Assembly: GCF_019112545.1 (NCBI RefSeq)
Contig: NW_025064901.1
Location: 196,164 to 260,163 of the forward strand
DNA: 64,000 nt
Direction of reading: 5' to 3'
DNA from: Guyanagaster necrorhizus
Lineage: Eukaryota > Basidiomycota > Agaricomycetes > Agaricales > Physalacriaceae
Below, piece by piece: positions 25,601 through 60,822 of the stretch. The notes beneath the pieces are model-generated. The model searched no databases and had not been told where the DNA came from. It saw only the letters and a program-made list of their open reading frames with translations. The position numbers were made by a program, and so were the translations under genes. Each line of letters starts with the position of its first letter. The stretch's first letter is position 1.

Positions 25601-25900
25601 TGCATCCATTTGGGTACCATTTCTTCAAACATCCTTTCTCTCTTCTGTTCATTGGCTCTGGTGGCAAGGTTGTTGGCATAATGCACTGCTCAGATATTTA
25701 TTTTGCATTGCAGGTCAATGGTGAGAATTGTCTCCCTGTTCTCCATCTCTTCATTCCAGTGCTCTTTGGAATCTGCATCTAGTAGTTCAAATAGTAACTT
25801 CTGGCATTTACATCAGGCAAATGTTATCTTCCTGGTTTTCCAGTTAATTAGTGGGTTGTGTCTAATTAACCAGTCATGTCTGAGGAAGATCTTCTTTGTT
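22687..25900 (-). pseudogene. E2 pol: RT, RNase H, integrase, chromodomain (degenerate)
   Basis: On minus, from right to left: reverse transcriptase (about 25,400-24,850), RNase H (about 24,750-24,350), integrase zinc-binding region (HPGITKTKELILQEY... CKICQ, about 23,980-23,870), integrase core (IDMVTELPECNSYNAIIVIV at about 23,780, then SKYGMPQVVILDRGPQF) and a chromodomain (VDYLVSWKEYSLESNQ, about 22,840-22,780). Many in-frame stops. The RT active site near 25,050 reads DLDD instead of YLDD. A chromodomain after integrase is typical of chromoviruses and is thought to target heterochromatin. Confidence 0.86.
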
Positions 25901-28139: not shown

Positions 28140-29866
28140 CCATTCTAGCTTATCAAAATAGTTGGTTGCTGCCTTGTCTCTCATCTTATAATCTTTGATC
28201 TTCTATTTGTATACTTCTTGTACTGCTGGATCAATAAACTTATTATGTAGTATCTGTTTGAAGACTGGCCATGAGAGATATCAGTAGTGCTTCTGAGTGG
28301 ATGATCAGAAATTTGGGGAGATGAGAATCCACCATGTCTTGGCTTTTTCTTCCAGGTATAAGATGGTGAACATGACTTTGTTCATGTCCATTCTGAGGTA
28401 TCTGATATATACCTTGAAATATTGTTCACAGTTGACTAAAAATTGATTGATGTTATCAGGTGCTCCTTTAAAAGGGTGGAGCTTTCATAATAGATCAGGT
28501 CTGCACTGCAGCACTGCTGCATTCTCAGGAAGGGGACTCATCAGGTTGAGCCATTCAGAGAAGGAGGATCATCACCACTCATCTGGTAGTCTCAGAAAGG
28601 AGTAAAAGGAGTTATCATCAGTGACAAGACTTTCTTAGAGGATAGCTTTTTTTTGAACAATGATGCCATCCTTTATGGTAAAGCCTAGTCATACTACTTC
28701 TGAGTCATCCCTGATTGGTTCCTTTCCAGTGCCACTTTCAGTGGCTTCATCAGATGGGGGCTGAGTCTCTAGGACTCAGCTTCCTTTGCCAATTCAAGAG
28801 TTCTGATATGAGTTCTGTGGGCCTGTCAGCTGAGGTTGGGATCAAGATAGCTGAGTTGTCATAGACTGAGAGGAAGTAGCAGAGTATAAAAAGGTGCTAC
28901 AGATTGACAGAGCCATGTATACAGCTCATTTTAGGGTGATGGGTGGTGACCACAGTATTGGTTAGATTGTTTGTAGTGCCTGATACTCTGGTGGTCTGCT
29001 GATCAGATCCTCAGAGTGATTCTTGTTATACTGCTGAGCAGCATAATCAGTCACTGTATGTCACAAGATCTCTGTTCATTCATTAGGTTCTGAATAGGCA
29101 TATAATTGTCCCATTCACAATGCCAATCAGTTATCATCATGCCATAAAAATGTTATCCCTCTGTTATACAGCTCCTGATACTCCTGTGTCCTTGCTCTTT
29201 GAATCTCCTTCTCCAGTGCTTCTTTATCTGTGTTTTCTGTAAGTCCATATGTGAGCTCTCTGTCTGCATGAGATGGTTTGCTACTCTCAGTTTCCTCATC
29301 CCCTTTGGGCTCATCAGACTCTTCCTCTTCCTCAAGAAGAGAAGTGGCAGGTGGGTTGTAGAAACTCTTCTTGCTCTCTGGTGGTCATACTGTCTTTGTT
29401 GATCCACTGCTCTGGCTGGGTGCTGAGCCCAGCAGTGGAGCCTAAAAAATCCAAGGTGTCAAGGTAGGTGACAGCAGATTGACTTTTGATGTCTGAGTTG
29501 TATCAATTTCCACCTGCTGCTCATGCTGCTGCCACTCTCTCATGATAGAGGTGAATGTTTTGGCAGTATCTGTCATCAAGGAGCTGCCCAACCACTCAGC
29601 TTCTGAGGAATCCCCAGAGAGTACAGGCAGAGATGTGGACATTGTCAGGTACTCATAGTCTGTAGTGCTTGAGGATGGACTTGTCATCCTTGAAAGTGGT
29701 ATTGGCACTAGGAGTTCATTGGAGAGGGGGATACTGGAGAGTTGAGGGATGTGAGACACTTCTTGGGACATTGTCCTGAGCTGGAGGAGCAATCTCATTG
29801 CTCTTGGTTCAGGCTTTGTCTGCCATGAGGACTTCTATGTTGGTCCAGAGTTCTGGAGCCCTGTTA
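28140..29866 (-). pseudogene. E2 gag, middle part (degenerate)
   Basis: Minus-strand gag text: the core with YFDKLEWL near 28,150 and a gag domain around 28,190-28,480, then a charged, Ser-rich N-terminal part (open stretches at 29,153-29,407 and 29,442-29,798). Interrupted at 29867 by E3 and resumed at 35540. Confidence 0.72.
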
Positions 29867-29871
29867 TATGC

Positions 29872-30362
29872 ATGCTGCTGGCCTCTGTGTCACTCCAACC
29901 AACTATGAATGTAATCACAGAAACCTATCAGACTCTGGTCACTCCCTATTACCTATTAATTTCATTTTCACTATTATCATTTCACATCTGTATTTCACAT
30001 TGTAATATCTAGACCCTGAACTCAGTAGCAAATATTGACATTAGAACCCAATAGAACCTGACTCAGAATTAGCTACCATTAGTATATAAAGCCATATATA
30101 ACCATTGTAACTACTCAGTTTGAATATCAACTTGAATAAGCCATTTACACTTCACACTCACTTCAACTCCTCCTTACCTCATCCATCAGATTCCACTCTG
30201 AAGGATACTTCTGTTCATTTCTCCAACAGAACTCTGTTCTGTCCATTGAGATCTTTAGGCTCTGACTCAAGAGTAACATTGCTAATAGCTTTGTTAACAC
30301 CTATGCACTCTGCTGGTCTCCATGCATGCATTCAAGCCTACTTGATTGGCATATTCCTAACA
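29872..30362 (+). repeat. E3 5' LTR (family B)
   Basis: 491 bp, TGTTATATGC to CCTAACA. It contains a TATA-like AGTATATAAAG near 30,080. Confidence 0.9.
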
Positions 30363-30401
30363 GTATATTCGAACTCAAATCCTTGAGTTAAAAATTTTAT
30401 C

Positions 30402-33400
30402 ATGTCCACCATATTTACCCAACCCACAGAAACCAATCCTGAACAAACCCAGCATACCCATCCAAACATGTTTTCTATGAAAGACATTCCAGCCTCTGCC
30501 TCAAAGAAACATCTCCACCACTTAGATCCATTTATTCTCTCTCAGAATCTGAACTCAAGGCCCTATAAGAGTTTATTGATGATAATCTATGCAATGAGTT
30601 CATTACTCTATCCTGCTCTCTGCATGGGGCTTTGATTCTATTTGTCAAGAAGAAGACCAGTGAACTTCAACTTTGCATCAATTACTGTGACCTAAACAAA
30701 ATCTCCAAAAAAGATCACTACTCTCTTCCTCTCATTTCTGATCTCCTTGACTCTGCCCACTCTGCGCACATCTACACCAAGCTTGACCTTTGGCATGCCT
30801 ACCATCTCATTTGCATAGCTAAGGAGGATGAATAGAAAACAGCCTTTCAGACCTGCTATAGTTTTTTTGAATGGCATGTCATGCCTTTTGGCCTCACAAA
30901 TGCTTCAGCAGCATTCCAATGATTTGTGAACAATATATTCTCTGATATGCTCAACATATCAGTAGTAGTCTACCTCAATGACATCCTTATATGTTCTGAC
31001 AATCCAGAAGATCACCAGAAACATGTTCATAAGATCTTATATAGGCTTAAAGCTAATAGACTCTACTGCAAAGATTCTAAATGTGAATTCAACTGGGACT
31101 CTATAGAGTACCTAAGCTACATCCTATCACCTGAAGGACTTTGCATGTCTGAAGAAAAAGTCAAGGCCATTGTTGACTGGCTGATGCCATGAAAAGTCAA
31201 GGATATCTAATTCTTTCTTGGCTTGGCCAACTTCTACCATTGCTTCATATATGGATATAGTGATATTATCATCCCCCTTACACAACTCACCTGCAAGGGA
31301 ACTCTATGAAAATTTGATGACAAATGCTTAGCTGCCTTCAATGATTTGAAATAGGCCTTTACACATGCTCTCATCTTTACTCACTGAGTTTTCAATCAAA
31401 AGATAGTGATGAAAACTGATGCCTCTGATTATGCTATTGCAGCTATTCTCTCCATCTATCTTGAAGATGGCAAAATTCACCTAATTGCATTCTGCTCCTG
31501 GAGCCTCTACAATGTCAAACTCAACTATGACACCTATAACAAAGAGCTCCTGGCCATTTTTGAAGCTTTTAAACATTGGCAGCACTACTTTGAAGGCTTC
31601 ACAGACTCCATCAATGTCATAACAGACTACAAGAACCTTGAATACTTTATCACCACTAAGATTTTAACCCACTGACAAGTCCACTGATTTGAATACCTAT
31701 CTCAGTTCAACCTAGTAATCCAGTTCCAACCTGGAAAACTTGGTGGAAAACCAGATGCACTTACTAGATAATGGGACATCTACCCTAGAGAGAGAGATAG
31801 CCAATATGCTTAAGTCAATCTCCACAATTTCTGATTGGTGTTTATCCAAAAACAACTTTCTGCATCACTCCATGCAACCTACCTTGAAGGCTCTACTCTC
31901 TGAGCCAGTGCCATCATGGACATTGACAAGCTCCACATCGATATCAAACAAGCACAATCTTTTGACCCTACATCCTCTGTTAGACTAAGGCCACTTTGGA
32001 ATTCTCTCCCTCTCAGTGATTCATTGATGAATCAGACATCCTCTACTTTAAAGGCTGCATCTATGCCTTAGAGTTCAGAGATCTCCATCTCTGTATACTA
32101 CAGAACAATCACAACCATATCTTGGCAGACTATTTTGATCAAAATCAGACATTAGAGCTTGTCCAGCAGAATTACACCTGGCCAAAGATGCACAAATATG
32201 TTCAACACTATATTAAGTCCTGCACAGTTTGTGGATGCAACAAGGCACCTAGACACTGCCTCTATGGGTTACTCAAACCTCTACTGGTCCCTGAACAGCC
32301 ATAGAATTCTATTTCCATAGATTTTATTGAACAACTACTGGACTCTAATAGATTTACTGCCATCTTAGTAGTCATAGACTGAGCTAGCAAGCAAGCCATC
32401 TTCATCTCCACTCATGACACCATTAACTCTGTGGAGCTCACCCAACTTTTCTTTATCCATGTGTTTTCCAAACATGGGGTACCCAGTCACATCACCTCAG
32501 ATCATAGCTCTGAATTTATTTCCTAATTTACTCATGCCTTAGCCATAGCTCTTGACATAGAACTCCATCTTACTTCTGGTTACCATCCAGAGGCTGATAG
32601 ACAAACTGAACAGACAAATCAAACTCTGGAACAGTATATCCACATTTACTGCTCCTACCAACAGGACAACTGGGACATCCTCCTACCCATTGCTGAGTTT
32701 GCATACAACAATGCCCCTAATATGTCCACTAGAATTTCTCTATTTTTCACCAATAAGGGCTACCACCCTAATATTACCATTCACTCTGAAAGGGACATTG
32801 CCTCTGCTCAGGCCTGAGACTTTGCAGTCAACCTTGATGAACTCCATCAAATATTAAAAGATGAAATCTCCAAGGCTCAGGCTTGCTATAAGATTCAAGT
32901 GGACAAGCATCAGATTTTGGTGCCTCCATTCACAGTGGGGGACAAGATCTACTTCAGTTTCAAACATATCAAAATCACCTGTCTGATCAAAAAATTCTCA
33001 GAGAAATACCTTGGCCCTTTCAAAATCATAGCCCAACTGGGTTCCCACTCCTTCATACTGAGGCTTCTGCTGGATCTCCAGTCTATTCACCCAGTCTTCC
33101 ATATGTCACAATTAGAATCTGTAGAAGAAAACACCATCCTTAATCAAATCCAACTATTACTGCCTCCAGTTGAAGTTGACAGAGAAGAACATTTCAAAAT
33201 AGCCTAAATTCTTGACTCCAAACTGGACCACTGGTTCTGCTGCCCACTGCTATACAAGATCCAGTGGCTAGGCTATGAAGGTACCAACAAAGAATTTGCT
33301 TAGTTACCAGCCTCTGAGTTCTCCACTGATGAATTCATTAAAGACTTCCACCATCAATACTCAGGCAAACCAGGACCCTTGTCCAAAGTTATTCAAACAT

Positions 33401-33430
33401 CTCATTTCTAATACAATGCTATTCTGGACA
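30402..33430 (+). pseudogene. E3 pol: RT, RNase H, integrase, chromodomain (degenerate)
   Basis: RT from about 30,526 (YSLSESELKAL, KISKKDHYSLPLISDLLDSA), with the active site mutated to YLND at about 30,975. RNase H at about 31,400-31,680 (MKTDASDYAIAAIL). Integrase zinc-binding region at about 32,120-32,260 (CTVCGCNK) and catalytic core at about 32,310-32,800 (YHPEADRQTEQ). Chromodomain-like end at about 33,200-33,390 (CPLLYKIQWLGYEGTNKE). Several TGA stops sit where Arg is expected (VVID*ASKQAIF), consistent with CGA to TGA. The coding part ends before 33,591, where the antisense gene begins on the other strand. Confidence 0.86.
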
Positions 33431-33588
33431 CCACTGGCACTCCACCTTACTATTTCAATTCTAACCACTAATTACCACTATTCAATCACCTCTTCTATAT
33501 TTTCAAAGTCAAAAATCTTGCATTTATATTTTTTGTCTACTACCAACATCCAATGCCTTTTTTTATATATATTTTATACAAAATATTT

Positions 33589-34903
33589 TTATAAAGAAGT
33601 AAAATCTGAACTCTTCTCCTGCTCCTTCAACTCCTCTATATCCTCATCCAGCCTCTTCAATATCACTTCCTGAAGATTCTCCACCTCCTGATCTCTCTCA
33701 TCTTTAAAAATCAGTCAGGCCTTCTTTCAGGCCTTCACCTCAGACTTCAAAAACAGCTCTGAAGGAGATGACATATCATCAGAACTGTAGTTGTCTTAAA
33801 GACCTACCATAGTACTATAAACATCTGCTACCTTGTCTGCCAACTCATCCACATGATGCATCAACTTGCATATCAATTTTGAAAGTTGGTGGAGACCAGC
33901 AGAGACCTTCATACTACTGATCATCTCACTTGCAGTGACACCTCAGTTGAATGAACAGATGGTCTTCTTAATCTTGCAATATGCACAAGTCTGCCCATAC
34001 CTGGTGCCTTCAGTGGCTGAGTGTGCATAACAACAGGCACTATCTTGGTGACAGTGCACACAGCTTTCTGAGAACAAAAGCTAAGTCAAACTATACAAGA
34101 AAACTAAGACACTTACTTTCACTATCCAACAACTCTTTATCTTCTGCCAGTCCCACCACTTTCAACTTTGCCCACTTCTTGAGACTAGCAACCACATCTA
34201 CCCCACTGCCATCCACTATGCTCCTTGATCTGAACTTGCATTTATGGCCCTTCTCTGCTGGATTCACTGCCTTCCTCTTCCCCTCTCACACTCTCTTTCT
34301 CCTCTTCAGAGTTCCTCCAGATTCTTCTGACTCATCATCTCCCTTGGTCCTCTTATCTTGCTCACCATCAGACTTCAGAGGCATATGGCCAGTCACCTTC
34401 TTGAAGTGAAGATCAGGGCCAGGACCAAACCATTCTGCCAGCACTTGATGCAGCCAAAAATCAATAGCCTCTGTGGGGGTTATCTGCAATCCATCCTCTA
34501 TAACTATCCCCTTCTGCCCTACCTCTGAGACTGAAGCCCTCACCATAGCCTCCACAGCCTCCTTCTCCTCAGCCTCTCTCTGAACCACCTCTCTCAATGC
34601 CTCTTTCACCTCTTTAGCCCACCTCTCCATAGTCTGCTGGACCTTCTCTCTCTTCCTCTCCAATTTCTCCTTCTGCTCCCTTTTTCACACCTCCCAGGCC
34701 ACATGGTCCACCCAGACCTTTTCCTCCTGCTCCCACTCCTCTTGCTATTTCAAATAGCTCTCTATAGCCTCTGCATATTCTTTTTCCATGGTCTGCCATT
34801 TCAAATGAAATAATTCATTGGTCTCTTCAGAGCCATTGGGGGTGAGTTCTCTCACCAAAGGCTCAGGAGTACACAAGTGATAATACACAGCAGGAGGTGA
34901 TAT
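33589..34903 (-). pseudogene. E3 antisense gene with intron and Zn2Cys6-like cluster (degenerate copy)
   Basis: Lies between pol and the 3' LTR, on the strand opposite to pol. Exon 1 (about 34903-34117) starts at an ATA where the E6 copy has ATG and encodes a Glu/Lys-rich coiled coil (EREKVQQTMERWAKEVKEAL), then AIDFWLHQVLAEWFGPGPDL, KVTGHMP and a basic stretch (KRRKRVREGKRKA). A 49-nt intron at 34116-34068 (GTAAGT to CTCAG) follows. Exon 2 (34067-33589) encodes CVHCHQDSACC and CAYCKIKKTIC, then helical ASEMISSMKVSAGLHQLSKL and a terminal coiled coil. A few in-frame stops are present (one TGA after SFN). The protein-level match to the plus-strand copy at 49211-50428 extends over the whole length, which argues for past coding function. 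Function unknown; a DNA-binding or gag-like role could be imagined from the cluster. Confidence 0.7.
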
Positions 34904-35033
34904 AGTTAGGGTGATAGTGGTAGTATCTGACTAAGTTGCAAAAAATTCTCACAGCCACCAACAATCTTCCATGTGAATCCACCAGCCATCAGGATCTGCA
35001 CTCTTGAGGGTAAGAATGCTAACAGGAGGATAC

Positions 35034-35534
35034 TGTTACACACATGCTGCCAGCCTCTGTGTCACTTCAACTAACCATGAATATAATCACAAAAACCCAC
35101 TGGACTCCAGCTGCTCCCTATTATCTATTAATTTTATTTTCACCATTATCATTTCACATCTGTATTTTATATTGTAATATCTAGACTCTGAACTCAATAG
35201 TGAATATTGACATTGAAACCCAATGAAACCTGACTCAGAATTAGCTACTATTAGTATATAAAGCCATGTATAACTATTATAACTACTCAGTTTGAATATC
35301 AACTTGAATAAGCCATCTATACTTCACACTCACTTTAACTCCTCCTTACCTCATCTATTGGATTCCACTCTGAAGGATACTCCTGTTCATTTCTCTAATG
35401 GAACTCCATTCTGTTCATCAAGATCTTTGGACTCCAACTCAAGAGTAATATTGCCAATAGCTTCATTAACACTCACACACTCTGCCAGTCTCTATATGTG
35501 CACTCAAGTCCACTCAATTAGCATGTTCTTAACA
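35034..35534 (+). repeat. E3 3' LTR (family B)
   Basis: 501 bp, TGTTAC to CTTAACA, preceded by an AACAGGAGGATAC purine-rich tract at 35021-35033. Confidence 0.9.
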
Positions 35535-41989: not shown

Positions 41990-43380
41990 CCAGTGAATGA
42001 AGTGAAAGCGAATGTTGATGTGCTTGGTTCAGACATGATACTGATGATCTTTTGAGAGTGCAATGGCAGACTGATTATCTGAGAATAAAGTTGTAGCATC
42101 AGTAATTGGTGAGAAAAATTAAAAGAGTAGACTGTGAAGCCAGAGTGCCTCCTTCAATGCATGTGTTGCAGCCATATATTCAGACTCAGTGGTTGAAAGC
42201 AAGATGATCTCCTGCTTTTTAGATGACCATGAAACAGCTCCACCATTTAGCATGAAGACATACTCAGTAATGGCATGCTTATCCTCTGCCATGCTCCCAT
42301 CAGCATCCACATATCCATGCAAAACCTTTCTGTTTCTCCTAAACATCAGCCAGTAATCCCTTGTGCCCTTCAAGTAGTGAAAGATGTGTTTTACAGCCTT
42401 CTAATAGGCCTCTGCAGCAGCCATTGAATATTTTGAGACTGTTGTCATGGCAAATGCAATGTCAGAGCACATTCCAAGCATAACCCAGATCAAAGAGCCA
42501 ACAGACTCCCTGTAAGGGATATCTCTCATGACTGCAATTTCTTGGGTAGAGGCTGGTGCAGAAAAGGAAGACAAACAGAAATTAATATCCATTGGTGTAG
42601 AGACTGGTTTGAGATCTTCAAAGCCATAGTGACAAACAATGGCATTGATGTATGAGCATTGGGAAAGAGAAACAGAGCATGACTTATGGTCATGTGTGAT
42701 CTCGATACTGAGAATCCAGTGCAGCTCCTCTAAATCCATGACTTCCATGTATTTTGCTATATCTTTTTTTACCTCTTGCACTAGATGCAATGATAATGCT
42801 GTGATAGTGCAGTCATCAACATGGACAGCAATGACAGTCAAGTTTCAGCCCTCCTGCTTGTAAAACATGGCTTGATCAACATCACACTGCTTGAATCCCA
42901 GCTGCACCACCAAAATCTCAACAAGACATTGATACCAGTGATGACCACTCTGCTTCAAACTATACAGAGTCTTTATGAGATAGCAGACTTGACCAGGATA
43001 GGAGCCAGGCTCAGAATAGCCAGGAGGTTGACATATATAAATGATTTCTTCATTAGTGAGCTTTTCATTTAAGTATGTGCTCTTGATATCAACTTGATGA
43101 AGCTCTAGATTGAGTGCTGCAGCTATAGCAAGAATTGAATGGATTGATGCAAGTCTTGCAACAGGGGCATAAGTGTTGAAGTAGTCAATGCCAGATACTT
43201 GTGAGAACTCTTGTGCTACCAAGCAAGCTTTAAACTTGGCTATGCCTCCCTCAGCATCCTTCTTGATTTGAAAGATCCACTTTGAGCCTACAACATTTGC
43301 TCCAACTGGTTTTTCAATAATTTTCCAAGTCCTCACAGTCTTCAACATTGCAAGCTCTTCTTGTATTGCACCTTTTTACA
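41990..43380 (-). pseudogene. E5 copia RT and RNase H
   Basis: RT begins KTVRTWKIIEKPVGANVVGS and continues through KARLV-like KACLVAQEFSQVSGIDY, TYAPVARLASI and QVDIKSTYLNEKL. The active site is VHVDDCTI (about 42,830-42,805), with His in place of Tyr. RNase H follows with GYVDADGSMAED and WSSKKQEIILLSTTESEYMA. Only a few stops (at about 42,842, 42,400 and 42,118), so this is among the best preserved coding stretches in the nest. Confidence 0.88.
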
Positions 43381-43679
43381 AAGGCCAATCAGACTGACAC
43401 TTCACTTCAGCTAGACTGCATGGCTCTAAGGCTTCTGCATCAGCTGTTGAAATGACCATGGCATACTTCTCAAGAAAGTCAGCATCCTTGAGTATCATCA
43501 ACTAATCTGCCTCTCCCTCTCTCTCAAACTCAAGAGGTTTATTGTTTTCATTGACAACTAGTAACTGAACACCAACAGGTGCCACAGAATCACTTGTACA
43601 TGCTGATACACTGCCTTTGCCAGAGATGAGGTCCAGCATCCACTGACTAGACTTTTCAGTGCATCCAAAACAGGTTTTT

Positions 43680-45463
43680 TCAACTATAGGTTGGACTGTA
43701 GGCTAGAGTTCAGAGATAGGTGACACCTGTGATGGTTTTGCAGTAGGTGGATTGGACTGAGTTTTTGGCATTGATAGAATCTTGTGTAGCTCAATGTCTT
43801 CCTCTCCTTCAAGATCATCAGTGGTAATACAAGTTGTGTTGAAATAGATATTTCACTTGATAGACACTGTCTTGCTTTCTGTCCAGTAGATATGGGATCC
43901 ATTGCTTGTTTCATCAAATCCAATCCACCAACCTTCATGTATGCAGCCACTCAGCTTCATAGCCTTAGTCTCAAAGCATATCCAGCATTTCTCTCCTCAT
44001 TCTCACAACCCTTTTAGATCTGGCTTCTTTCCTGTGACAGCCTCATAAGGAGTCATCCCATCTAGAGTCTTTGTTGATGTTCTATTGAGAACCTATACAG
44101 TATGGTGAATAGCCTCAGCTTATAAGAAGCAGGATAAGCTGCTCAAATGCAGCATAGCCCTGACTTTTTCAATAACTATGCAATTATACCTTTCAGCCAC
44201 TCTATTGTGCTGTGGCATATCATGCACAGTCATCTTCCTTGCTGTGCCAGTAGTTTTCAGATATAAGACAAATGCTTTGTCAAAGTATTCATCTCTATGG
44301 TCTGAATAGAGGATTTTTACAGGATGGTCATGCTGGGTGCAGATGTGAGCTTCATAGGCCTTATACACCATGAAAGCTTCACTCTTCTGGTGTAAGAATT
44401 CAAGGTAAGCCCAACAAGTGCTGTCATCAATGAAGAAAATAAAGTAACAGCATTTATGCAGGGATTCCATGGGTGCTGGTCCTCATAAATTAGAGTGAAT
44501 TTCACCTCCAATATCAGTTGCACATTCTCTCCCTCAAGTTTTAGACACTGGCTTTCATGTAACTTTAGCATAGACACATGACTCACAGAACTGTGGTTCT
44601 CCAGATGATTTGTCAAGCTTTACTTCAGTTACAAAGTCTTTTTTGATCAGATGATGAGCAACTTTAGATAAAATGTGGCTCATGTGGTGGTGCAATTAGT
44701 CTAGAGTAAGCATCTCCTCAGCTGTCTCAGCCAAATCTCTCTTATGATGAACCCAATATAGGCCACCATCATCTTTTGAGACAACCTCAACTACCTTTCC
44801 ATCTGATGCACAAATAGTGCATTTTCCACCATCAAAAGTCAACTCGAAACCAAGATCATCAAGTTGGCCAACTGAAATGAGTGTATAGTCAACTTCAAGA
44901 GAGTACATGATCTCAGTGAGTTGCAGGTTGCTTGCATTTGCACCATCTGACATATTAATGCTTATTATGCCCTTTTCAGCTGTAGAAAATTTTTGAATGT
45001 TCACAGCATAGAATGCCTTGGGTGGGACAGACTGAAACAAGTTGAAATCATTACAGTAAGGGGAAATATAGCATGTATAGCCAGAGTCATAGAGTTCAAT
45101 ATGAATTTGAATATCAGGTGAGTTTGTGATGTTAGTAATGGCTGCAACTGACTCTTCAGAAGCAGATACATCCTCCAAAGTTGGCATGCCAGATGTGGCA
45201 TCTGATTGCCTGTCAACAAAGAAGTTCACATCACTCCAGTTAATATCTGAGGATAACATGCTGCTCAGCTCATCCCATGATTCATCACCAACCTTTGAAA
45301 AAAGGTCAATATCATTGTCTTTATCCTCCAAGTCCTCTGACAAGCCCTCAACTTCAGATTCATCTAACTCAGAAACTGCAGCTAGTGACAGCATGTCACT
45401 AGCATCATCAACTCTGAATGCACCACCAGCTTCCCAGTCCAAATCTGATGATTCTTTAGCCAC
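43680..45463 (-). pseudogene. E5 copia protease and integrase
   Basis: Protease with ELYDSGYTCYISPY (DSG motif) at about 45,100. Integrase zinc-binding remnants (HHHMSHI ... CESCVYAK) at about 44,700-44,570. Core with IDDSTCWAYLEFLHQKSEAF, HRDEYF and a glutamate region near NRVAERYN. Stops interrupt it at several points. Confidence 0.84.
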
Positions 45464-45468
45464 ATTGG

Positions 45469-46321
45469 CTATTTCACCCTTTGATCCAGAGGCCTTGCTG
45501 TCATTGTCTGATGACTTCTTCTCAGGGCATTTGTTTTTGAAGTGTCTTTTCTTCCCACATTCTCAGCATAATTTTTTGCCAGATTTCTTGCCCTTTTTAT
45601 TGCCATCTGAGCTTGATGAAACAGACATGGCTTCATCTTGCTCCAAGTCCTTTCTCTTTCCAGACTGCCAACTATGCTTAGCTTGCTCACACTCCAGTTG
45701 GTCATATTCCTCAGAAATAGCATGGATCAGGTTCTCAGGATTGACTTCCTTGTTGAAACTAAAAAGCTTTGCTGCTATAAGGAGAGTCAATGCATGCTTG
45801 GCAAGATAGGGAGGGATAGAGATGAGAATTGTTGAGTGGTAATCCTTCTCCTCAATGATGACACCAATGGAAGCTAATGACTCTTGTTTCATTGATAGAC
45901 TGTCAAGAAACTTGTGAACATTGCCTTTTGCCAGACAATGTGACTCCATAAACTGCTGCCAAAGGTCAGTTTGTGCATAGTCACTCTTATCAGTAAACTC
46001 TTTTTCAATCTTTGACCAGGCTACAGCAACTGTGGGAAGTCACTGAATCTTCATAGCAACTGAGTCAGGAATCTTCAAGAGCAGGAGGTTCTTGGCTACA
46101 GTCTCATCTTTCTCCTATTCATCTAGCTCAGCTATGAGAGCTGTTGTGGGTGCAGTGAGAGAGGGTTTAGACTTTGATCCATCAAAGTGATCCCATTTTT
46201 CTTTGGCTTGAACACCAATGGAAAAGCAGAGGTAGAAGATGGACCAGTTATCACCAGACATGTTTAGTGTGGGGACATTCGATAGTAAGTCTGTAGTCAA
46301 AACAGCAATGGCAGAAGTCAT
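45469..46321 (-). pseudogene. E5 copia gag
   Basis: Starts MTSAIAVLTTDLLSNVPTLN with SGDNWSIFYLCFSI (a copia gag N-terminal pattern with a conserved Trp). It ends in a Lys-rich stretch and a zinc knuckle remnant (CGKKRHFKNKC) near 45,560. A stop replaces one residue in the knuckle. The plus-strand open frame over this region is a shadow. Confidence 0.83.
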
Positions 46322-46706: not shown

Positions 46707-48591
46707 AATGGAGAAGATGTCTCCAGAAGGGAAATAGATAGAAATAATTGCAGTTTGAGATATGCAGCTTCTGACAGAGCTATCAAATAATCAGAGTTGC
46801 ACACTAGAGATGGTTTTAATAGGAATATTATTGGCAGCTATATATTTAATGTCAATAAAGCAGTAGCTAGAACCAAAATTAATAAGAGCAAGAAAATGCA
46901 GAATGGTAGAAGCTGGAGACTCATTAGACTCCATACTAGTCAGTAATTCTGCTGAAAGTGGAAGATGGAAGGATTGGTTGAAAACAGATGTTGTGTTAAG
47001 GGTAATAACCTCCAGTGTGCAAATAGAGTCAATGCAACTCTGAATTCATATGAAGGAAACAGAGTTGCTTCTTAATTTTCCAACTCAGTTGGAGCTAGTT
47101 CCTTGGGAGTGATGTCTACTTCAGCTGTATGACTCTTGGTAGAGACCACTGCCTTCTGCTTGTTGCAATCTTCAGTTTTATGTTTAGCTCCACAGAATAT
47201 GCAAAGGTTGTTCTGGCACTGGTGGTCTTTTTCTTCCTGAGTAAAATGGCCATCTTTGTCTAGCTTGTCAGCATAGAGCTTAGGAGTGGTAGATTTTGAT
47301 GTGGAGCTGGAGTCCAAGGAAAAAGAGTTGGACCTCTTGGATTTGGGGTTGAAGAATTGGTTGAAGGCATTATTGTCCCAGTTTTCATGAGCAATTTCAG
47401 TCTTCCAGGTTCAGTAGCAAGCATCAAGTTCTTGAGCAAGAAAGCACATGTCACAAAGGTTGTTTGGCTTTCCATGGTGGGCCATGTCATCCTTGATACA
47501 GATGCAAAGACCACAGTAAAAGGCATAGTAGAGAGAGTTATCTCTATATCTAATTTGTAAGGCATACTGATTGAATTGAACTATATACTTTATAATCCAG
47601 TCTTCATCATACATCCAAAGGTGTTCTAATGCATCTTCAGTATCTCTGATGGCATCAAAAAGGCCAAAGTTGCTATGAAGCTCATCTAAAAAAGCCACAT
47701 AGGAGAATTGCCAGGCTGATGAATTCCATAGATTGGGGTTAAGACTGTCTGGTTTGAACCAGTTAAGTGTAGTGCCAGCCAGAAAGGAAATGGCATAGTT
47801 GACCTTGCTAACATCCATTGTGAATGTGGTAGATCTGTTGTTGAAGTTCAACTGAAGGGAGACTATGAAGGTCTTCAGTTTGTAAGAATTGGAGCTGTTA
47901 AAAGATTCTAGTTTCTTGACTTTGGTTCAAATAGTGGCTGGCTTAGAGTGATTGAGAGAAGTGGAGACTCCTCATAACAGGTTCATGAATTTTAAGAACA
48001 TGTCCTGCTGGTTTAGATTGTTGCTTCCTGCAGAGCTGTCAGAGCTGCTCAAGCCATTGGGACTATCTGGTCTTTCTGATCCATCTAGTCCACTTGGCTC
48101 TCCTGGCCCTTCTGAAAAAGGGTTTAGTGGATTATCATCTGGTTCCTGTCAGATGAGAGTATGAGTAGGAGTGTCTTCACCTCTGTCCTCTGAGTCTGGG
48201 CTGTCTGAATTCCTATGCATGTTGCTTAGGAATAAGAGGTCTATCAGAGGGTTGGTTCAGGCACCATACATTAGGCTGGCCTATCAGGCTCCATTGGTTG
48301 GCATGCTGGTGGTGTCAAAAGAGTTAGGGGAATCATCATAATTAGATTGGCAGACAGTGAAGCTAGAGTAGGTGTAGGTTTCTCTATGGGAAGGTTGTCC
48401 TTCACTGGAGGCCAATCCAAAAAGACCTGGTTGTTTCTTCAAGGTGGAGATTAGGATGTCTTTCATGGAAAACATATTGCAATAGATAGGCTGGGTTTGT
48501 TCAGGATTGGCTTCTGTGGGATGAATAAATATGATGGATATAATAAAAATTTTTGACTCAAGGGTTTGAGTTTGAATATACTGTTAGGAAT
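46707..48591 (-). pseudogene. E4 protease start, gag and leader (degenerate)
   Basis: Minus strand: leader next to the LTR, gag start MFSMKDILISTLKKQPGLFG (48,475), gag core at 47,851-47,411 (VSKVNYAISFLAGTTLNWF), zinc knuckle CIFCGAKHKTEDC (about 47,200), then protease (LALINFGSSYCFIDIKYIAA), where DSG has become NFG. Broken by E5 at the AAGTC site. Confidence 0.82.
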
Positions 48592-49080
48592 GTGCTAATC
48601 AACTGGACTTTTATACATGCATAGAGACCAGCAGAGTGCATGGGCATCAATAAAGCTATTGGCAATATCACCCTTGAGTTGAGGCCCAAGGATTTGGACA
48701 GATAGAACAGAGTTCTGTCAGAGACATGAAGAGAAATATCCTTCAGAGTGAAATCTGACAGATGAGGTAGAAAGGAGTTGAAGTGAGCATGAAGTGTAGA
48801 TGGCTATCCAAGTTGATATTCAAACTGAATAGTTACAATAATTATATATGGTTTTATATACTAATAATAGCTAATTTCAAGTCAGAATCTGTTGGATTCC
48901 AGTGTCAATATTTGCTACCAAGTTCAGAGTCTAGATATTACAACATGAAATACAGATGTGAAATGATAATGGTAAAAATGAAATTAATAGGTAATAGAAG
49001 CAGCCAGAGTCCAGTGAGTTTCCATGATTGAATCTGTAGTTGGTTGAAGTGACATGGAGGCTGGCAGCATGCACATAACA
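48592..49080 (-). repeat. LTR shared by tandem elements E4 and E6 (family B)
   Basis: 489 bp, TGTTAGGAAT to CATAACA as read on plus. On its left lies the 5' leader of E4; on its right (49081-49095) lies the purine tract and tail of E6. It is therefore the 5' LTR of one copy and the 3' LTR of the other. Confidence 0.88.
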
Positions 49081-49210: not shown

Positions 49211-50428
49211 ATGTCACCTCCCACTGCATATTGTCACTCATATACTCTTGAGTCTTTGGTGAGGGGATCCATCCCTGATGGCCCTTAAGAAGCTAAGGAA
49301 TTATTTCATCTGGAATGGCAGACCATATGGCCTGAGAGGCACAGAGAAAGAAGCAGCAAGAGGGATTGGAGAAGAAGAGAGAGGTGGTGGAGGAGGCATT
49401 GAAGGAGGCTGCTTGAAGAGAGGCTGAGGAGAGGAAGGCCTTGGAGGCCATGACAAAGGCTTCAGCCTTGGAGGTAGGGTAGGAGAGAATGATTATAGAG
49501 GATAGGTTGCAAATGACCCTCATAGAGGCTATTGATTTTCATCTGCATTAAGTGCTAGTAGAATAGTTTGGTTCTGGCCCTAGTTTTTACTTCAAGAGAG
49601 TGACTGGTCATATGCCTCCAGAGTCTGATGATGAGCAGGGCAAGGAAACTGAGAGAGATGATGAGTCAAAAGAATCTAAAGAGACCCTAGAGAGGAGGAA
49701 GAAGGTGTGAGAGAGAAAGAGAAGGGTGGCAGATCTGGTAGAGAAGGGCCATAAATGCAAGTTCAGGTCAAGGAGTGTAGTGGATGACAGTGAGACAGAG
49801 ATGGTTGCTAGTCCCAAAAAGCAGATGAAGTTGAAAGTTGTGGGGCTAGTGGAGGGTGAAGAAATGTTGGATGGTGAAAGTAAGGGTCTTAGTTCTCTTG
49901 CATAGTTTAACTTAGCTTTTATTTTCAGAGAGTTGTATACACTGTCATCAAGATGGTGCATGGTGTTATACATGACTGGTAATCAAAGGCACCAGTCGAG
50001 GGTGGACTTGCTCTCACTGCAAGATCAAGAAAACCATCTGTTTGTTCAACAAGGGCATCACTACAAGTGAGATGATCAGTAGTGTGGAGGTCTCTGCCAG
50101 TCTCCACCAGCTTTCGAAGTTAATATGCAAGTTGATACATCATGTGGATGAGTTAGCAGACAAGATGGCAGATGTTCATGGTACTGTAGCAGGTCTCCAG
50201 GATGATTATGGGTCAGACAATATGTTGTCTTCCTCAGAGTTGTTCTCAGAGTCTGAGTTGGAGGCCTAGAAGAAGGCTTATCTGCTTTTTAAGGATGAGA
50301 AGAATCTGAAGGTGGAAAATCTGTGGGAGGCAATGTTAAAGAGGCTAGATGAGGATATAGAGGAGTTGAAGAGGCAGAGGGAGAGTTCTGGTTCTGGTGC
50401 AGGCCTATTGGATTCTGCTTTCTTGTAA
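49211..50428 (+). pseudogene. E6 antisense gene with intron and Zn2Cys6-like cluster
   Basis: Opposite in strand to E6 pol and located between pol and the 3' LTR. Exon 1 is 49211-49879, starting ATG TCA CCT (MSPPTAYCHSYTLESLV). It encodes KREVVEEALKEAA, REAEERKALEAMTKASALEV, IEAIDFHLH, KRVTGHMPPESDDEQGKETE and EKGHKCKFRSRS. The intron is 49880-49928 (GTAAGG to TTCAG, 49 nt). Exon 2 (49929-50428) encodes CIHCHQDGAWC, a 14-residue linker, CSHCKIKKTIC, then SASLHQLSKLICKLIHHVDE and a terminal coiled coil (LKRLDEDIEELKRQRESS), ending at TAA 50426-50428. Several stops are present (TGA in the linker, TAG before KKAYLL). The copy in E3 (33589-34903) matches throughout and has the same intron. No host homologue is recognised. 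It is probably a former gene carried by family B. Confidence 0.72.
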
Positions 50429-50439
50429 AGATTTTGTAT

Positions 50440-53400
50440 GAAATATATATAGAAAAGGCATTGGATGTTGGTAGTAAAGAGAAAAAAAATGTAAATATAA
50501 GATTTTGACTTTTTGAAAGTGTAGAAGGGATGATTGAAATGGTATTCAGTGGTTAGAATTGAAATAGTAAGGTGGGGCTCCAGTGGCATCTGGAGTAGTG
50601 TTGTATCAAGAATGGAATGATTGAGTGACTTTAGATAAGGGTTCTGGTTTGCCTGGATATTGATGATGGAATTCTTCAATAAATTCATTGGCAGAGAACT
50701 CAGAGGCTGGTAACCAAGCAAACTCTTCATTTATACCTTCATAGCTTAGCCACTGGATTTTGTACAGCAGTGGGCAGCAGAACCAGCAGTCTAGTTTAGA
50801 GTTGAGGATTTAGGCTATTTCAAAATGTTCTTCTCTGTCAACTTTGACTAAAGGCAGTGGTAGTTGGATTCAGTTAGAAATAGTGTTTTCTTCTATGGGT
50901 TTCAATTGTGACACATGGAAGATGGGGTGAATAGACTGGAGATCCAATGGAAGCCTCAGAGTAAAGAAGTGGGTACCAGGTTGGGCTATGATTTCAAAAG
51001 AACTAAGGTATTTCTCTGAGAATTTTCTGGTTGGGCAGGTGGTTTTGATATGTTTGGAACTGAGGTAGACCTTGTCCCTCACTGTGAGCAGGGGTGCTGG
51101 AATCCAATGCTTGTCTGCTTGGATCTTGTAGTGAGACTGAGCCTTAGAAATTTTATCCTTCAGTAATTGATGGAGTTCATCAAGGTTGACTATGAAGTCT
51201 CAGGCCTGGATGGAGGTGATGTCTCTTTCAGGATAAACAGTGATGTTGGAGTGGTAATCCTTATTAGCAAAAAATGGGGAAATTCCAGTGGACATATTAG
51301 AGGCATTGTTGTAGGCAAATTCAGCAATGGGTAAGAGGGTGTTCCAGTTATTCTGTTGGTAGAAGCAGTAGATGCAGATGTATTGTTTCAGAGTTTGGTT
51401 TGCCCATTCAGTTTGTCCATCAGCCTCTGGATGATAACTAGAAGTAAGATGGAGTTCCATATCAAGAGCTAAGGCTAAGGTGTAAGTAAATTGGAAAACA
51501 AATTCAGAACTGTGATCAGATGTGATGTGACTAGGTACTCCATGTTTGGAGAACACATAGATAAGAAAAAGTTGGGTGAGCTCTATAGAGTTAATAGTGT
51601 CATGAGTGAGAATGAAGATGACTTGCTTGCTAGCTCAGTCTATGACTACTAAGATGGTGGTAAATCCATTGGAGTCCAGTAGTTGTTCAATGAAGTCCAT
51701 GGAAATGGAATCTCATGGCCATTCAGAAACTGGCAGAGGTTTGAGTAACCCATAGAAGCAGTGTCTAGATGCCTTATTGTGCTCACAAACTGTGCAGGAC
51801 TTAACATAGTATTGAATATATTCACACATCTTTGGCCAGGTATAGTTCTGTCAGACTAGTTCTAATGTCCAGTTTTGACCAAAGTGACCTGCCAAGATGT
51901 GATCATGATTGTTCTGTAGTATATGGAGATGGAGATCATCAGAGTCTGGGATATAGATGTGGCCTTCAAACCAAAGAATGTTGGATTCATCAATGGACCA
52001 CTGAGAGAGAGAGGATTTCAGAGTGGTCTTGGCCTAGTAGAGGCCATTGGAGCACATAGGGTTAGACAATTATGCTTGTTTGATATTAGTGTGAAGTTTG
52101 TTAACATCCATGATAGTACTAGCTTATAGGGTGAGGCCTTTGAGATAGATTGCATGGAGTGATGCAGAAAGTTGTTCTTGGATAAACACAGATTGAAAAT
52201 TGTGGGGGTTAACTTGGGCATATTGGCTATCCCCCTCTTTAGAGTAGATATCTCATCATCTAGTGAGCACATCCAGTTTTCCACCAAGTTTTCCAGGGTG
52301 GAACCGAATTATTAGATTGAACTGAGATAGGTATTCAGACCAGCAGACCTGTCAGTGGATTAGAATCTTGGTGGTGGCAAAGTATTCAAGATTCTTGTGG
52401 TCTATTATGATGTCAATGGGGTCTGCAGAGCCTTCAAGATAGTGCCACCAATGCTTAAAGGCTTCAAAAATGATTAGAAGCTCTTTTTCATGGGTGTTAT
52501 AGTTGAGCTTAGCATTGTGAAGGCTCTAAAAGCAGAAAGTGATGGGGTGAATTTCACTATCTTCAAGATAAATAGAGAGGATAGCTGCAATTGCATAATC
52601 AGAGGCATCAGTTTTCACCACTATCTTTCAATCAGGGACTCAGTGGGTAAGGATGAGGGCATGTGTAAAGGCCTGTTTCAACTTGTTGAAGGCTACTAAG
52701 CATTTGTCATCAAATTTCCATGGAGTTCTCTTGCAGATGAGTCATGTAAGGGAAAGAATGATATTGCTATATTCATATATGAAGTGACAGTAGAAGTTGG
52801 TGAAGCCAAGAAAGGATTGAATGTCTTTGATCTTTCATGGCACTGGCCAGTCAACAATAGCCTTGACCTTTTCTTCAGACATGCAAAGTCCTTCAGGCAA
52901 TAGGATGTAGCCTAAGTATTCCATGGAATCCTGATTGAATTTGCATTTAGAACTCTTGCAGTAGAGTCTATTAGCTCTAAGTCTGCATAAGACCTCATGA
53001 ACATGTTTCTGGTGGTCTTCTGGATTGTCAGAATATATAAGAATGTCATCAAGATAGACTACCACTGATATATTAAGCATGTCCAAGAATATATTGTTCA
53101 CAAATTGTTGGAATGCTGCCAAAGCATTTGTGAGGCTAAAAGACATAATATACTATTTAAAGAAACTATAACAGATCCAGAAGGCTGTTTTCTATTTGTC
53201 TCCTTTGGCTATGTGAACGAGATGGTAGGCATATTGCAGGTCAAGCTTGGTGTAGATGCATGTAGAGTGGGCAGAGTCAAGGAGGTCAGAAATGAGGGAA
53301 AGAGGATAGCGATCCTTTTTGGAGATTTTGTTTAGACTGCAGTAATCAACACAGAGTTGGAGTTTATCAGTCTTCTTCTTGAGAAATAGGACTGGAGCTC

Positions 53401-55841: not shown

Positions 55842-58800
55842 TTACTCTCTCCTTAAGACCATCATCCTGATGGTTAATTTAGGGATAAGTCCTCCTAGCC
55901 ACTCACAGGTGGCCTATCTGCTGGATCTGTAATGTTAGTGATTGTCCTCACTTGATTAGAGCAGAGATCTATCAGAGTATCCTGCTGATATTGCAGGTAT
56001 TGATGGAAGCTCCTTCTTTTCATTGTTATTATATGTTGTGGTCTGCCACCCATTTGTGACTTGCTAGTCAAAAAATGTTCTGGACATTGCTCTTTGGTGT
56101 ATGTTCTATTTATCATCATATTTTGCAGATATTGTGAATTAGTAGAGTATAATATTGAACATGTCCCCTGCTGGTGATGTTGATTGATCATGAATTTTAG
56201 ATCAACATATTTGCCCATGTTGACTCTGTTGTTTTGCTGTTCATAATTATGTATTGCTTTCTCTGCATTCATATACTTCTTGTTGACCCATTGGTTAGAT
56301 TCTGGACTATAACCTTTCCAGCTTACTAGGTAGTCAATGGTTATTTTTATGCCTCTGCCTTGTGCCTTAACTTTTTGGTATTTGTGGTTTAGGACTTCAT
56401 TGATTTCATAATGTTCTTTATCATCGATGAGTTCTGGTGGAGGCAGTGGTAGTCATTCTTGATTTAAAAAGGTAGATGTGATATATGGTGTTAATAATGT
56501 CTCATTGAAGACATTATAAACTTTCTATGTTGCCAGTAACTACAACTTGTATGCAGAGTTGCCAATCTTAGCAACAACTTTGAATAGTCCTATTTATTTG
56601 TCTGCCAATTTTTGTTTCAGGCATGGGAGATAGAGATTTGTGATATCCAACCAGACTTTGTCATTGGTCAAGTATTCATGAGCAGATTGATGGTGTTTGT
56701 CATACTGCCTCTTCATGGTTATGGCAGCCTTTTCAAGGGCTATCTTTGTTTCTTCATAGATTTTTGCCATTGTTGTTGCAAAATCCAATGATGCTGGTGT
56801 TGTTGTGTGTACCCATTCACTTTGTGCAACTGGTAGATTTTGTCCATAGTTGACAAAGAAAGGTGTCTTATCAGTTGCTGCATGGACCCTGTTGTTGTGT
56901 TGGAAGATGGCTAGTGCTAGCCATTCAGTTCAATCATCTTGTCAGTAGTTGATGAAAAGTCAGAGATACTTTTCAACTTCTTAGTTCACTTGTTCCATTT
57001 GGCCATCTGTCTGAGGGTGATATGCCATTGAGACATTTCATTTGATGTTAAGGAGTCAGTACAAATCATCCAAGAATTTGGACACAAATTATAGTCCTCT
57101 GTCTGAAATCACTACTTGAAGCATGCCATACTTCATGTAAACCTTATCTCATAGGATTTTTGCTCATCCCTCTGATGTTAATTCTGTCAAATGGGCAATC
57201 AGAATAATTGCTTTTGAAAAGTGATCAACTATGACAATGATCACATTATAGCTGTCACTTTCGGGAAGTTCAGTTATCATATCCACTGAAATATAGGTCC
57301 ATAGTGATGAAAGAACCTCATTTGGATGGAGTGGAGCTGCTCAGGGTTGCATCAAGGATTTGCTACATTGACAAACCTCACAAGACTTGACATATCAAGT
57401 GATATTATGGTCTATTTTGAACCACCAATACTCTCTTAATACTAATTTTTTTGTTTTAGTGATCTCAGGATATCCAGCAGTTGCATGGTTATGGCATGTG
57501 GAAATGATATCACCATGAAGCCTCTGATCCCTTGGGATATAGATTTGTTCATCATAACAGATCAATTCCTCTTTCTTTTTTAGTCTCCACTCATGGTTGA
57601 GTGATGGAGCTATCCTTTGATTCTATTTGTGGGGATCCCTTATGGCACTCTTGATGCATTCATGCATCTCCTCTTCTGTGGGCATGATCATGGCATGAAA
57701 GTGTTCTGGTCATAGGATTATAGCTTCCTTATTGTCATCTCTTCCTTGATCATGATCAGCCCTCCAACTGAGAAAGTCAGCCTTTTTGTTTGCTACATCA
57801 GCTTTATAGTGTAGCATGTACTCATACTGTGATAATTCCATGACCCATCATGCTTGTCAGCAATTAAGTTTTTGTGGATGATGAAAATATCAGAGATTTT
57901 GATGATCTGTCTAGATCTCAAAGGTTTGGACTGCTCCAATGAGATAATGCTGCCATTCGGCAAGGGCAAGCATTATGGTGAGGAGTTCCTTGTCATATAT
58001 CTCATAGTTGTGCTCAGTAACAGTGAGTGCTTTTAACATAAAGGCAATTGATCATCATTTGCCATCCTGTTCTTGTGAAAGAACTGCTCCAATAGTGCCT
58101 TCACTGGAGTCAGCTTCCACCCTGAATTTTTCATCCTGACTTAGTATGGCCAGAATGACATCTTTAGCCAATCAGTATTTGAGATTGTCAAATGCCATCT
58201 GTTGGGAAATTCTCCAAGTCCATGAGGAATTTCTGGTCAATTGTATCATAAGTCAGACTATTTTGCTGTAGTCCCAGATAAACCATCAGTAGAAGTTGGT
58301 GAATCCAAGAAAAGATTGCAGTTCCTTCTTCTTTGTTGGTTCTAGCCACTCAGTTACTTCTGCCACCTTGACAGGGTCTATCCTGATGCTTCTTTCGCTG
58401 GTAATGACTCTGAGGTATTCAGTTTCTAATATCTTGAATTCACATTTCTCAGCTTTGAGGAAAAGCTGATGCTTCCTCATCAACATTAGTACCTGTCATA
58501 CTAAACACTGATGTTCTTCTTTAGTCTTGGACATGATGAGGATGTCATCCAAATAGATTGTTACCTTTCCAGTGGCAATGAGATCCTTAAAGATGTTGTT
58601 CATCATCTATTGAAAGGTTGCTGGTGAATTAGTGAGTCCAAAAAATATAACCATTGGTTCAAACAAACTATAATTAGTTTGAAAAGTGGTCTTCTATTCA
58701 TCATCTTCTTTAATGCACATGTTGTTGTACCTCCACCAAACATCCAATTTAATGTAGTATCTGGTGCCTTGGAGTTTGTCTATCAACTCTGAGATTAGAG

Positions 58801-59700
58801 AAAGTGAATAACAATTCTTGATCATCATTTTATTGAGCTTCCAATAATCTTGAACTGATCAGAGTTTTCCATCCTTCTTTTTGACAAAGAAGAAGAGAGA
58901 AGCCATTGGTGACTTTGATGGCTGAATTCATCTACTGGACAAATTTTCATCAAGGAACTTGTCCAGCTCTTGTTGTTCATTATTGCCAAGTGGATAGCAC
59001 TTGCAGTTCAGATTGGCATTTGCATTGGGAATCAATTCTATAGCATGGTCTCAGAGCTTCAGATCAGGTAATTCATTGAAACTTTCTTTTTTGAATAAGT
59101 CCTGATAGTCCCTTGCCTATTCAGATACCATTTTCTCAAATGTCTTTTCTTCTTTATCAGCATTGGCTTTTGCTGCTAGGTTATTGGCATGGTGGATGGC
59201 TCAAATGCAAATAGCTCTTTGTAGGTCAATGGTGAGAATGGTCTTACCATTCTCTATTTTTTCATCCCACCAGTCTTCAGGATCTTCATCTGATAGTTCA
59301 AATGGAATTCTCTGGCAATGGCATCAAGCAAAAATGATGCAGCTGGTTTTCCAGTTGATTAGTGAATTGTGCTGAATCAGCCAATCATGATCAAGAAATA
59401 TTTCCTTGATTCCTAGATCAGTTACTGCCAAATCAATTCATTCAGAATGATCCCCAATAGTGAGCCTTAGCTCTACATATTTGGTAATTGAACTGGCTTG
59501 ATTCTTTGTCCCATCTGCATTATAGACAGGAATTGGGGCTGCCATAGACTGAGTGGGGAGATTGTGTTTGGTGATGAAAGTATGGTTGATTAAACTTCCA
59601 GTGCACCCACTGTCAACTAGAGCAGTGACTTTGTGAGTGCTATAAGATGTAAGAGTCTCAATTTGGGCCTCAGCTAATAAATCTTGCCCAGAAGTTCTGG
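55842..59700 (-). pseudogene. E7 pol: protease, RT, RNase H, integrase, chromodomain
   Basis: Minus strand: protease (ALVDSGCTGSLINHTFITKH near 59,610, catalytic DSG present), RT (active site TIYLDDILIMSK intact near 58,550; LMRKHQLFLKAEKCEFKILE at 58,486), RNase H (about 58,150-57,850), integrase (about 57,400-56,600) and chromodomain (DYLVSWKGYSPESNQWVNKK, about 56,330-56,270). Several stops; otherwise the least disturbed gypsy pol in the window. Confidence 0.86.
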
Positions 59701-60822
59701 ATTGATAGATGAATTTTCATGGCCCATGTAATTTGTCAAGCCATTCCAGGGCTCAACATCATTCTGCTTCTCACATTCCTGTGATCATATCATCGATCAC
59801 TTCCTCAGCTTGGGTCTTGTGTACTCAATTTTTTAGTATGGCTTTCACCATTGCTTTGTCCTTCACATCCTTGATGGCTCACCAAGTCCATTCAGTGTCA
59901 AATGGTTTTAGCCATCCAATGGGGTTCTCTACCCTGGTTCAGCCCATGAGCAATTGAGTTTCTTTCTGAGGACTCTCTGTCCTTGTTTGGCCCTTTATTG
60001 GCAGTTGAGGTTTCTGTTTCGATTTCTTAGGTGATTTCAATAGATGAGTGGTACTGTCAGGTATATTTGAATGCATGCATAATTTAGACATAGTGGTGTT
60101 TCTACAAAAGTAAAGTCAGTCTGTTCAACAGCTGAGGGTGACAGTCTATTCTTTGAAAATTTAGCTGAGATCATAGAATCACTCACTGCTTGGCCTGGTC
60201 TTTTACCTCCTTGGACTTGTCATCCTGTCTAAGGTCTTCATCTTTTTTCATCAACTCAGCAATCTGTACCTGTATATCTTCTTGGGTGTGCTTATTTTTC
60301 TTCTGAGGACAGTTCTGTGCTATATAGCCCTTCTGGCCACAATTAAAACACTTTTCCCTCTTCTTGAGATGGTTCACATCCATTGGCTGATCTGTTCCAG
60401 TATATATCATGCCTATATTAGTTCACTTCTCACCAAATGAGGAAGTTGAGGCTGAGCCTCCAGGCTTAGTGAGTGTGGTCATATTAGAGATGGAGGACTT
60501 CATGTCCTGTCCCTGATGTTTCTGTCCACTCCATGATAGGGTGGACAATTCTGCCTTCTGCCATTGTCATTCTCAGTACATCATGATAATACATGCCTTC
60601 CATTCATCATATCTGATCAGGATTCCATATATTGGAGATGATCTTGAGATAGGAGGCTGGAGCTCCCATCTTCATATATTCGATCATCCTTCCAGTGTTG
60701 GATGTATCATCTCAGATCCTGGTAAGTTTGCCAAGTCATTCCAACTCATCAAAATAGTCATTAGCTGATTTATCTCCCATCTTGAAGTCCTTTATCTTCT
60801 GTTTGTAGACCTCTTAGATAGC
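59701..60822 (-). pseudogene. E7 gag C-terminal half
   Basis: Zinc knuckle CFNCGQKGYIAQNCPQKK at about 60,340-60,290, preceded on minus by gag text ending VYKQKIKDFKMGDKSANDYF at about 60,810-60,750. Interrupted at 60823. Confidence 0.83.

Follow-up and report, generated by a model that had tools for sequence, protein, structure and literature searches.

An intron-containing gene antisense to pol, very probably an accessory gene, in a Ty3/gypsy family of Guyanagaster necrorhizus

A family of Ty3/gypsy elements in the basidiomycete Guyanagaster necrorhizus very probably carries a real accessory gene, which lies between pol and the 3' LTR, is encoded antisense to pol and contains one short intron. 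An extra gene of this structure, position and orientation had been put forward in a preliminary description of two copies, and it proves to adjoin most of the pol ends examined across the genome. By transversions, the cleaner measure in these decayed elements, its second exon is under purifying selection at the protein level. We favour, with moderate confidence, a reading in which the product is a nuclear protein that binds nucleic acid in dimeric form and acts as a regulator of the element encoding it.

The gene and its host element

The window, that is the whole stretch of 64,000 nucleotides that was analysed (C22:196164-260163), contains two copies of the gene, and the searches described below covered a genome of 53.3 Mb in 109 contigs. 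Both elements, E6 (gene at 49211-50428, plus strand) and E3 (34903-33589, minus strand), hold a two-exon reading frame antisense to pol; the coordinates first given for them are exact and the two frames align across both exons. In E6 the gene runs from an ATG at 49211 to a TAA at 50426-50428 on the plus strand, with exon 1 at 49211-49879, a 49-nt intron at 49880-49928 (donor GTAAGG, acceptor TTTTCAG) and exon 2 at 49929-50428, which encodes a cysteine cluster and a heptad-like helix. In E3, on the minus strand, the gene starts at 34903, where the start codon is now ATA, and comprises exon 1 (34117-34903), a 49-nt intron read from 34116 to 34068 (GTAAGT...CAG) and exon 2 (33589-34067), ending with a TAA at 33591-33589. 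Both of these copies are dead. Exon 1 of E6 has seven in-frame stop positions and, as seen against its relatives, an internal deletion, and exon 2 has two in-frame stop positions ahead of the final TAA; in E3 there are three in exon 1 and four in exon 2 ahead of the final TAA. The stops had been described as falling at different places in the two copies, which is true of most of them, but two positions, codon 205 in exon 1 and codon 112 in exon 2, are stops in both copies.

In both elements 130 bp separate the position of the antisense ATG from the inner edge of the 3' LTR (48582-49080 in E6 and 35034-35534 in E3, each TGTTA...TAACA), and the end of the gene is about 235 bp from the matched end of pol. 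The C-terminal end of pol, which is convergent with the antisense gene, lies at 50663-51634 on the minus strand in E6 (C22:246826-247797) and at 32383-33354 on the plus strand in E3 (C22:228546-229517). E3 retains a 5' LTR at 29862-30362, so that the element, with LTRs of 501 bp, spans about 29862-35534, and it is flanked by a 5-bp target duplication with one transition (AGCCC/GGCCC). Its LTRs are 84.7% identical over 503 columns, with 77 transitions and no transversions.

Domain names for the E6 pol end were taken from two relatives, whose pol ends match the Pfam profile SH3_Tf2-1 above the cut-off (E about 1e-15). They also match Chromo over nearly the whole profile (E of 3e-4 and 8e-4), at 21.0 and 19.8 bits and thus under the curated cut-off of 25.1 bits, while the integrase core (rve) scores 19.4 bits in one of them, likewise under its cut-off. 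With the SH3_Tf2-1 match and the sub-cut-off integrase core and chromodomain, the element looks like a chromodomain-type Ty3/gypsy element, in which an integrase is followed by a C-terminal chromodomain, as in chromoviruses.

Several other features surround these copies. The gypsy copies are interspersed with the remains of a Copia-type element (42404-45562), which matches RVT_2 and Pol_BBD, and next to E6 is a frame resembling a Ty3 capsid (47414-47926), scored under the curated cut-off and perhaps the gag of a neighbouring gypsy copy. Another element family is represented by two further long repeats that are 67% identical (22757-26457 and 56262-59968), and tblastn with the antisense gene gave no significant match in either repeat. 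A host gene with a Mus7/MMS22 domain is encoded on the minus strand at 12557-15718. The GC content is 0.45-0.51 in the first 18 kb of the window and mostly 0.37-0.44 beyond, among the nested elements.

Occurrence in the genome and state of the copies

Protein searches of the genome gave at least 150 matches to exon 2 (150 scored of 261 candidates) and at least 146 match rows for exon 1 (142 scored of 380 candidates), and DNA searches gave at least 75 match rows with E6 (40 scored of 265 candidates) and at least 42 with E3 (40 scored of 266 candidates). Given such numbers for the two exons, the likeness between E3 and E6 is far beyond chance; the same amino acid is encoded in 129 of 224 comparable codons of exon 1 and in 105 of 158 of exon 2. 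The differences between the two copies are not mostly synonymous, as had been thought at first, since 23 are synonymous and 95 nonsynonymous in exon 1, and 29 and 53, respectively, in exon 2. Constraint is visible only across the wider family and in transversions, not between E3 and E6.

A census of pol ends, 123 of which were scored out of 2293 first-look candidates, found the gene at 115, where this means an exon match or the 3' end of the gene and not necessarily a whole gene, part of it at two, its loss at four and no match at two. At 111 of the 123 there is an exon match on the opposite strand within 3.5 kb, among 190 listed places made up of 150 exon-2 protein matches and 40 from the other searches. 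One of the remaining 12 has an exon match at 3.7 kb. In 351-base slices, eight others gave three with the 3' end of the gene, two with part of it, one in which it is lost and two with no match, and at the last three the gene is lost, as established for two by direct reading and for one from the coordinates of the matching pieces. In the reverse direction, a listed pol end accompanies at least 96 of the 150 exon-2 places. Two of the gene-less copies, L078 (C4:1797000-1797700) and L079 (C69:43600-44200), have one common deletion and are 96% identical over 602 columns, which argues that a gene-less copy has itself been copied again; this may have occurred by transposition, perhaps helped by full copies, or by segmental duplication. 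With four of 123 pol ends lacking the gene, and two of these with a single deletion, it appears that the gene is not needed in every copy.

The main alignment comprises 77 copies anchored to the relative L059 and divides by CpG ratio into 26 young copies (at least 0.3), 43 old copies (below 0.1) and 8 between. Loci L001-L058 comprise the strongest DNA matches of E6 and E3 together with others from the same lists, with L001 and L009 excluded because they are the same places as E6 and E3, and the 19 loci L059-L077 were picked for long open frames, so that the young set is enriched in open copies. C-to-T change, compared between the 26 young and 20 of the old copies, reaches 0.53 at CG versus 0.11-0.28 elsewhere. 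In E3 and the aligned copies decay is almost purely transitional, and many old copies are nearly devoid of CpG. The ATG survives in 21 of the 26 young copies and in 28 of the 43 old ones. Among the 24 young copies that could be assessed, the spliced frame runs uninterrupted from ATG to stop in 6, a figure that is not a rate because 19 of the 26 loci were picked for open frames, and the unspliced frame in 4; the spliced frame is open in none of the 37 assessable old copies (6 of the 43 could not be assessed).

The predicted protein and comparable antisense genes

In young copies, exon 1 encodes a charged N-terminal stretch, which is probably a coiled coil, then a middle block and a basic stretch, KRKFRSRS, of a type that resembles a nuclear signal. 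Exon 2 encodes the pattern C-x2-C-x6-C-x14-C-x2-C-x6-C followed by a heptad-like stretch, and the second CX2CX6C half is basic (CSRCKIKKTAC). Five of the cysteines are kept in all 26 young copies and the sixth in 25 of them. Together, the basic stretch, the cysteine cluster, which would be expected to bind metal, and the helix suggest a nuclear, dimeric nucleic-acid binder.

The gene product has no Pfam match above any cut-off; every match in Pfam and the PDB is weak, and coiled-coil proteins account for several. Searches of a protein database that may hold few fungal proteins, and for which there was no fungal positive control, found no homologue of the 271-codon frame of one copy at E up to 0.001, of four long open frames at E up to 1, or of an X-marked spliced copy at E up to 10. 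A scan of viral contigs found no match to the antisense gene and is uninformative, since pol had no match there either. AlphaFold, applied to an open stretch of 97 residues from E6 exon 2, gave a model that is too weak to use (mean pLDDT of 50.7; a single helix, of 37 residues).

The six cysteines, arranged in two CX2CX6C halves and followed by a probable helix, recall the Zn(II)2Cys6 proteins (PF00172), in which the linker between the halves is about 5-12 residues. Here the linker is 14 residues and the basic residues are in the second half rather than the first. Two frames of the gene, compared with Pfam at E up to 10, did not match this profile, and with the longer linker and no Pfam match the gene is not assigned to Zn(II)2Cys6.

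Antisense genes in this position have precedents. None had been thought to be described in fungi, but Boty-like Ty3/gypsy elements of Botrytis cinerea and Sclerotinia carry an antisense gene, brtn (Zhao 2011, as reported in PMC7264820; also cited in PMC8365987). Boty is described as a fungal Ty3/gypsy element with a chromodomain (PMC4227169) and a Monilinia transcript as resembling BRTN (PMC5987419). As far as published descriptions go, the gene reported here is like brtn in being antisense and in lying between pol and the 3' LTR of a chromodomain Ty3/gypsy element (PMC7264820, PMC4227169). In plants, the antisense genes termed aORF-3R include gene23 of Grande, that of RIRE2 and ORF4 of Retand, which has a TRP28 domain; the accounts given of them place the gene23 protein in the nucleus and predict that TRP28 binds DNA (PMC7264820, PMC11963269). 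The gene of G. necrorhizus occupies the same place in the same orientation, antisense to gag-pol and between pol and the 3' LTR, and like these genes it is present in most copies (PMC7264820, PMC11963269). Set beside them it has a conserved intron and the six-cysteine cluster, and TRP28 (PF04195) is absent among the Pfam matches of two of its frames at E up to 10. Unlike the element described here, Retand is ascribed to a plant non-chromovirus lineage (PMC7264820, PMC11963269). Hence, the family is a further case of known antisense accessory genes, as found in plants and in one other fungal element, and among the open-licence PMC literature no title on such a gene in basidiomycetes was found.

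A retroviral parallel is offered by HBZ, which is spliced and of the bZIP, coiled-coil type. HBZ of HTLV-1 is named among antisense genes (PMC11963269), and the resemblance lies in an antisense gene read from the side of the 3' LTR and in the nuclear site of HBZ; the analogy is one of working only, and no kinship is claimed.

We propose that the gene, with its one short intron, would be read in the direction of pol, beginning on the side of the 3' LTR. Since the genomic RNA is of the opposite sense, the intron of the gene would survive copying of the element, and a spliced gene could therefore persist in a retroelement. The protein would enter the nucleus by means of the basic stretch, bind nucleic acid through the cysteine cluster, with the protein acting as a dimer, and regulate the transcription, silencing or integration of its own element. 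Analogy with Grande gene23, TRP28 and HBZ makes regulation of the element the most likely role. A more specific version is offered tentatively, namely that the product is a zinc-cluster-like regulator, made from a spliced antisense message, that binds the LTR or host chromatin and sets the activity of the family; it would be a convergent counterpart of HBZ, and gene-less copies would be served in trans.

The gene could also be real and its protein act elsewhere, in the particle, as a nucleocapsid-like RNA chaperone. A cysteine-rich, basic protein would suit RNA binding equally well, but the CX2CX6C halves are unlike the CX2CX4HX4C knuckle of gag and an antisense gene would presumably be expressed apart from gag-pol, so that we regard a role in the particle as unlikely.

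Constraint on the gene and its meaning for the family

Because decay is strongest at CpG, transversions were relied on for dN/dS, and transition values were given little weight since decay dominates them, as the LTR pair of E3 illustrates. Across the 77 copies the transversion dN/dS of exon 2 is 0.22 (95% bootstrap 0.13-0.40; 0.15 in young and 0.25 in old copies), close to the pol control at 0.19 (0.11-0.34; young 0.16, old 0.19). In two shifted plus-strand frames of exon 2 the value is 1.43 and 5.83 (77 copies), and in the five other frames overall it ranges from 0.56 to 8.96, versus 0.15-0.25 in the frame of the gene. For exon 1 it is 0.48 (0.30-0.88; young 0.61, with an interval of 0.25-2.21, and old 0.48), and the reading frame has the lowest value of the frames in old copies and not in young, where frame +2 is lower (0.35) than the frame of the gene (0.61). 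Exon 2 is thus under purifying selection at the protein level by the cleaner measure, and the whole gene is held less tightly than pol, exon 1 only loosely. The preliminary description took a dN/dS near 1 as evidence against a functional gene. By transversions exon 2 is clear of that value and exon 1 less firmly so, while by transitions it is nearly reached, with decay dominating: 0.90-0.91 in exon 1 and 0.81-0.84 in exon 2, compared with 0.52-0.61 in pol under the same decay. Reverse frame -1 is as low or lower by transitions (0.84-0.85 in exon 1 and 0.78-0.80 in exon 2), and transitions therefore do not single out the frame of the gene.

A separate, earlier alignment of 58 copies to E3 was used to place changes by codon position. 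Transversions shared by three or more copies are distributed 11/3/17 over the three positions in exon 2 (p=0.008) and 1/6/18 in pol (p=0.0001). Exon 1 shows no pattern (9/12/14, p=0.58), and for the LTR the counts are 11/8/4 (p=0.20). Singleton transversions have an even spread in both exons and pol and an uneven one in the LTR (11/12/25, p=0.02). When CpG-like columns are set aside, shared transitions too differ among the three codon positions, with p=0.002 for exon 1, p=0.0008 for exon 2 and p=1e-10 for pol, and the LTR shows no such difference (p=0.54).

The donor GTAAGT is present in 74 of the 77 copies, and the intron measures 49 nt in 60 copies, 50 in three, 51 in eight, 52 in four, and 54 and 56 in one each. 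In some copies the intron length leaves a single open frame of up to 487 codons, with the donor still present. The conserved signals suggest that the antisense intron is spliced. When indels common to two or more of the 77 copies are considered, none of six in the intron is a multiple of three, so that its length varies regardless of frame, and all three in exon 2 are, each of 21 nt. In exon 1, 11 of 15 distinct indels in young copies are multiples of three, and only 5 of 25 shared indels are so among the 77 copies, part of which alignment splitting may explain.

These patterns bear on the idea that the region is a conserved cis-acting stretch of DNA or RNA, or specifies an antisense noncoding transcript that makes dsRNA, with the frame incidental. 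Retroelement antisense transcripts can act as RNA, according to PMC7264820, and the codon signal in exon 1 is weak and transitions show little constraint; against this, the transversion dN/dS of exon 2 is lowest in the frame of the gene, its shared indels keep the frame, the cysteines are kept, and length changes in the intron ignore the frame. A purely noncoding region was accordingly ranked low, as an improbable account. Passive capture of a host gene or fragment, carried as cargo, was ranked low as well, and we give it little credence. No Pfam or protein-search match points to a source and gene-less copies exist, but with the gene beside 115 of 123 examined pol ends and exon 2 constrained by transversions, a captured gene would have to be old and kept, and a captured spliced host message would be expected to leave no intron. 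Also considered and ranked low was an env-like third gene on the sense strand with the antisense frame as its shadow, which is very improbable because, although some copies have open frames of up to 259 codons here on the sense strand, the transversion dN/dS of the three reverse frames of exon 2 (0.56-6.06) is in every case above the 0.15-0.25 of the antisense frame.

An accessory gene whose protein regulates its own element from the nucleus is thus the reading that we prefer, and it places this family beside the plant, fungal and retroviral elements in which antisense accessory genes have arisen. Its copies are numerous and of graded age within one small genome, and some have open frames; the conserved intron would mark antisense splicing cleanly, and copies that lack the gene occur naturally. 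The function of such antisense genes is thus directly testable here, by RNA-seq and simple reporter assays.
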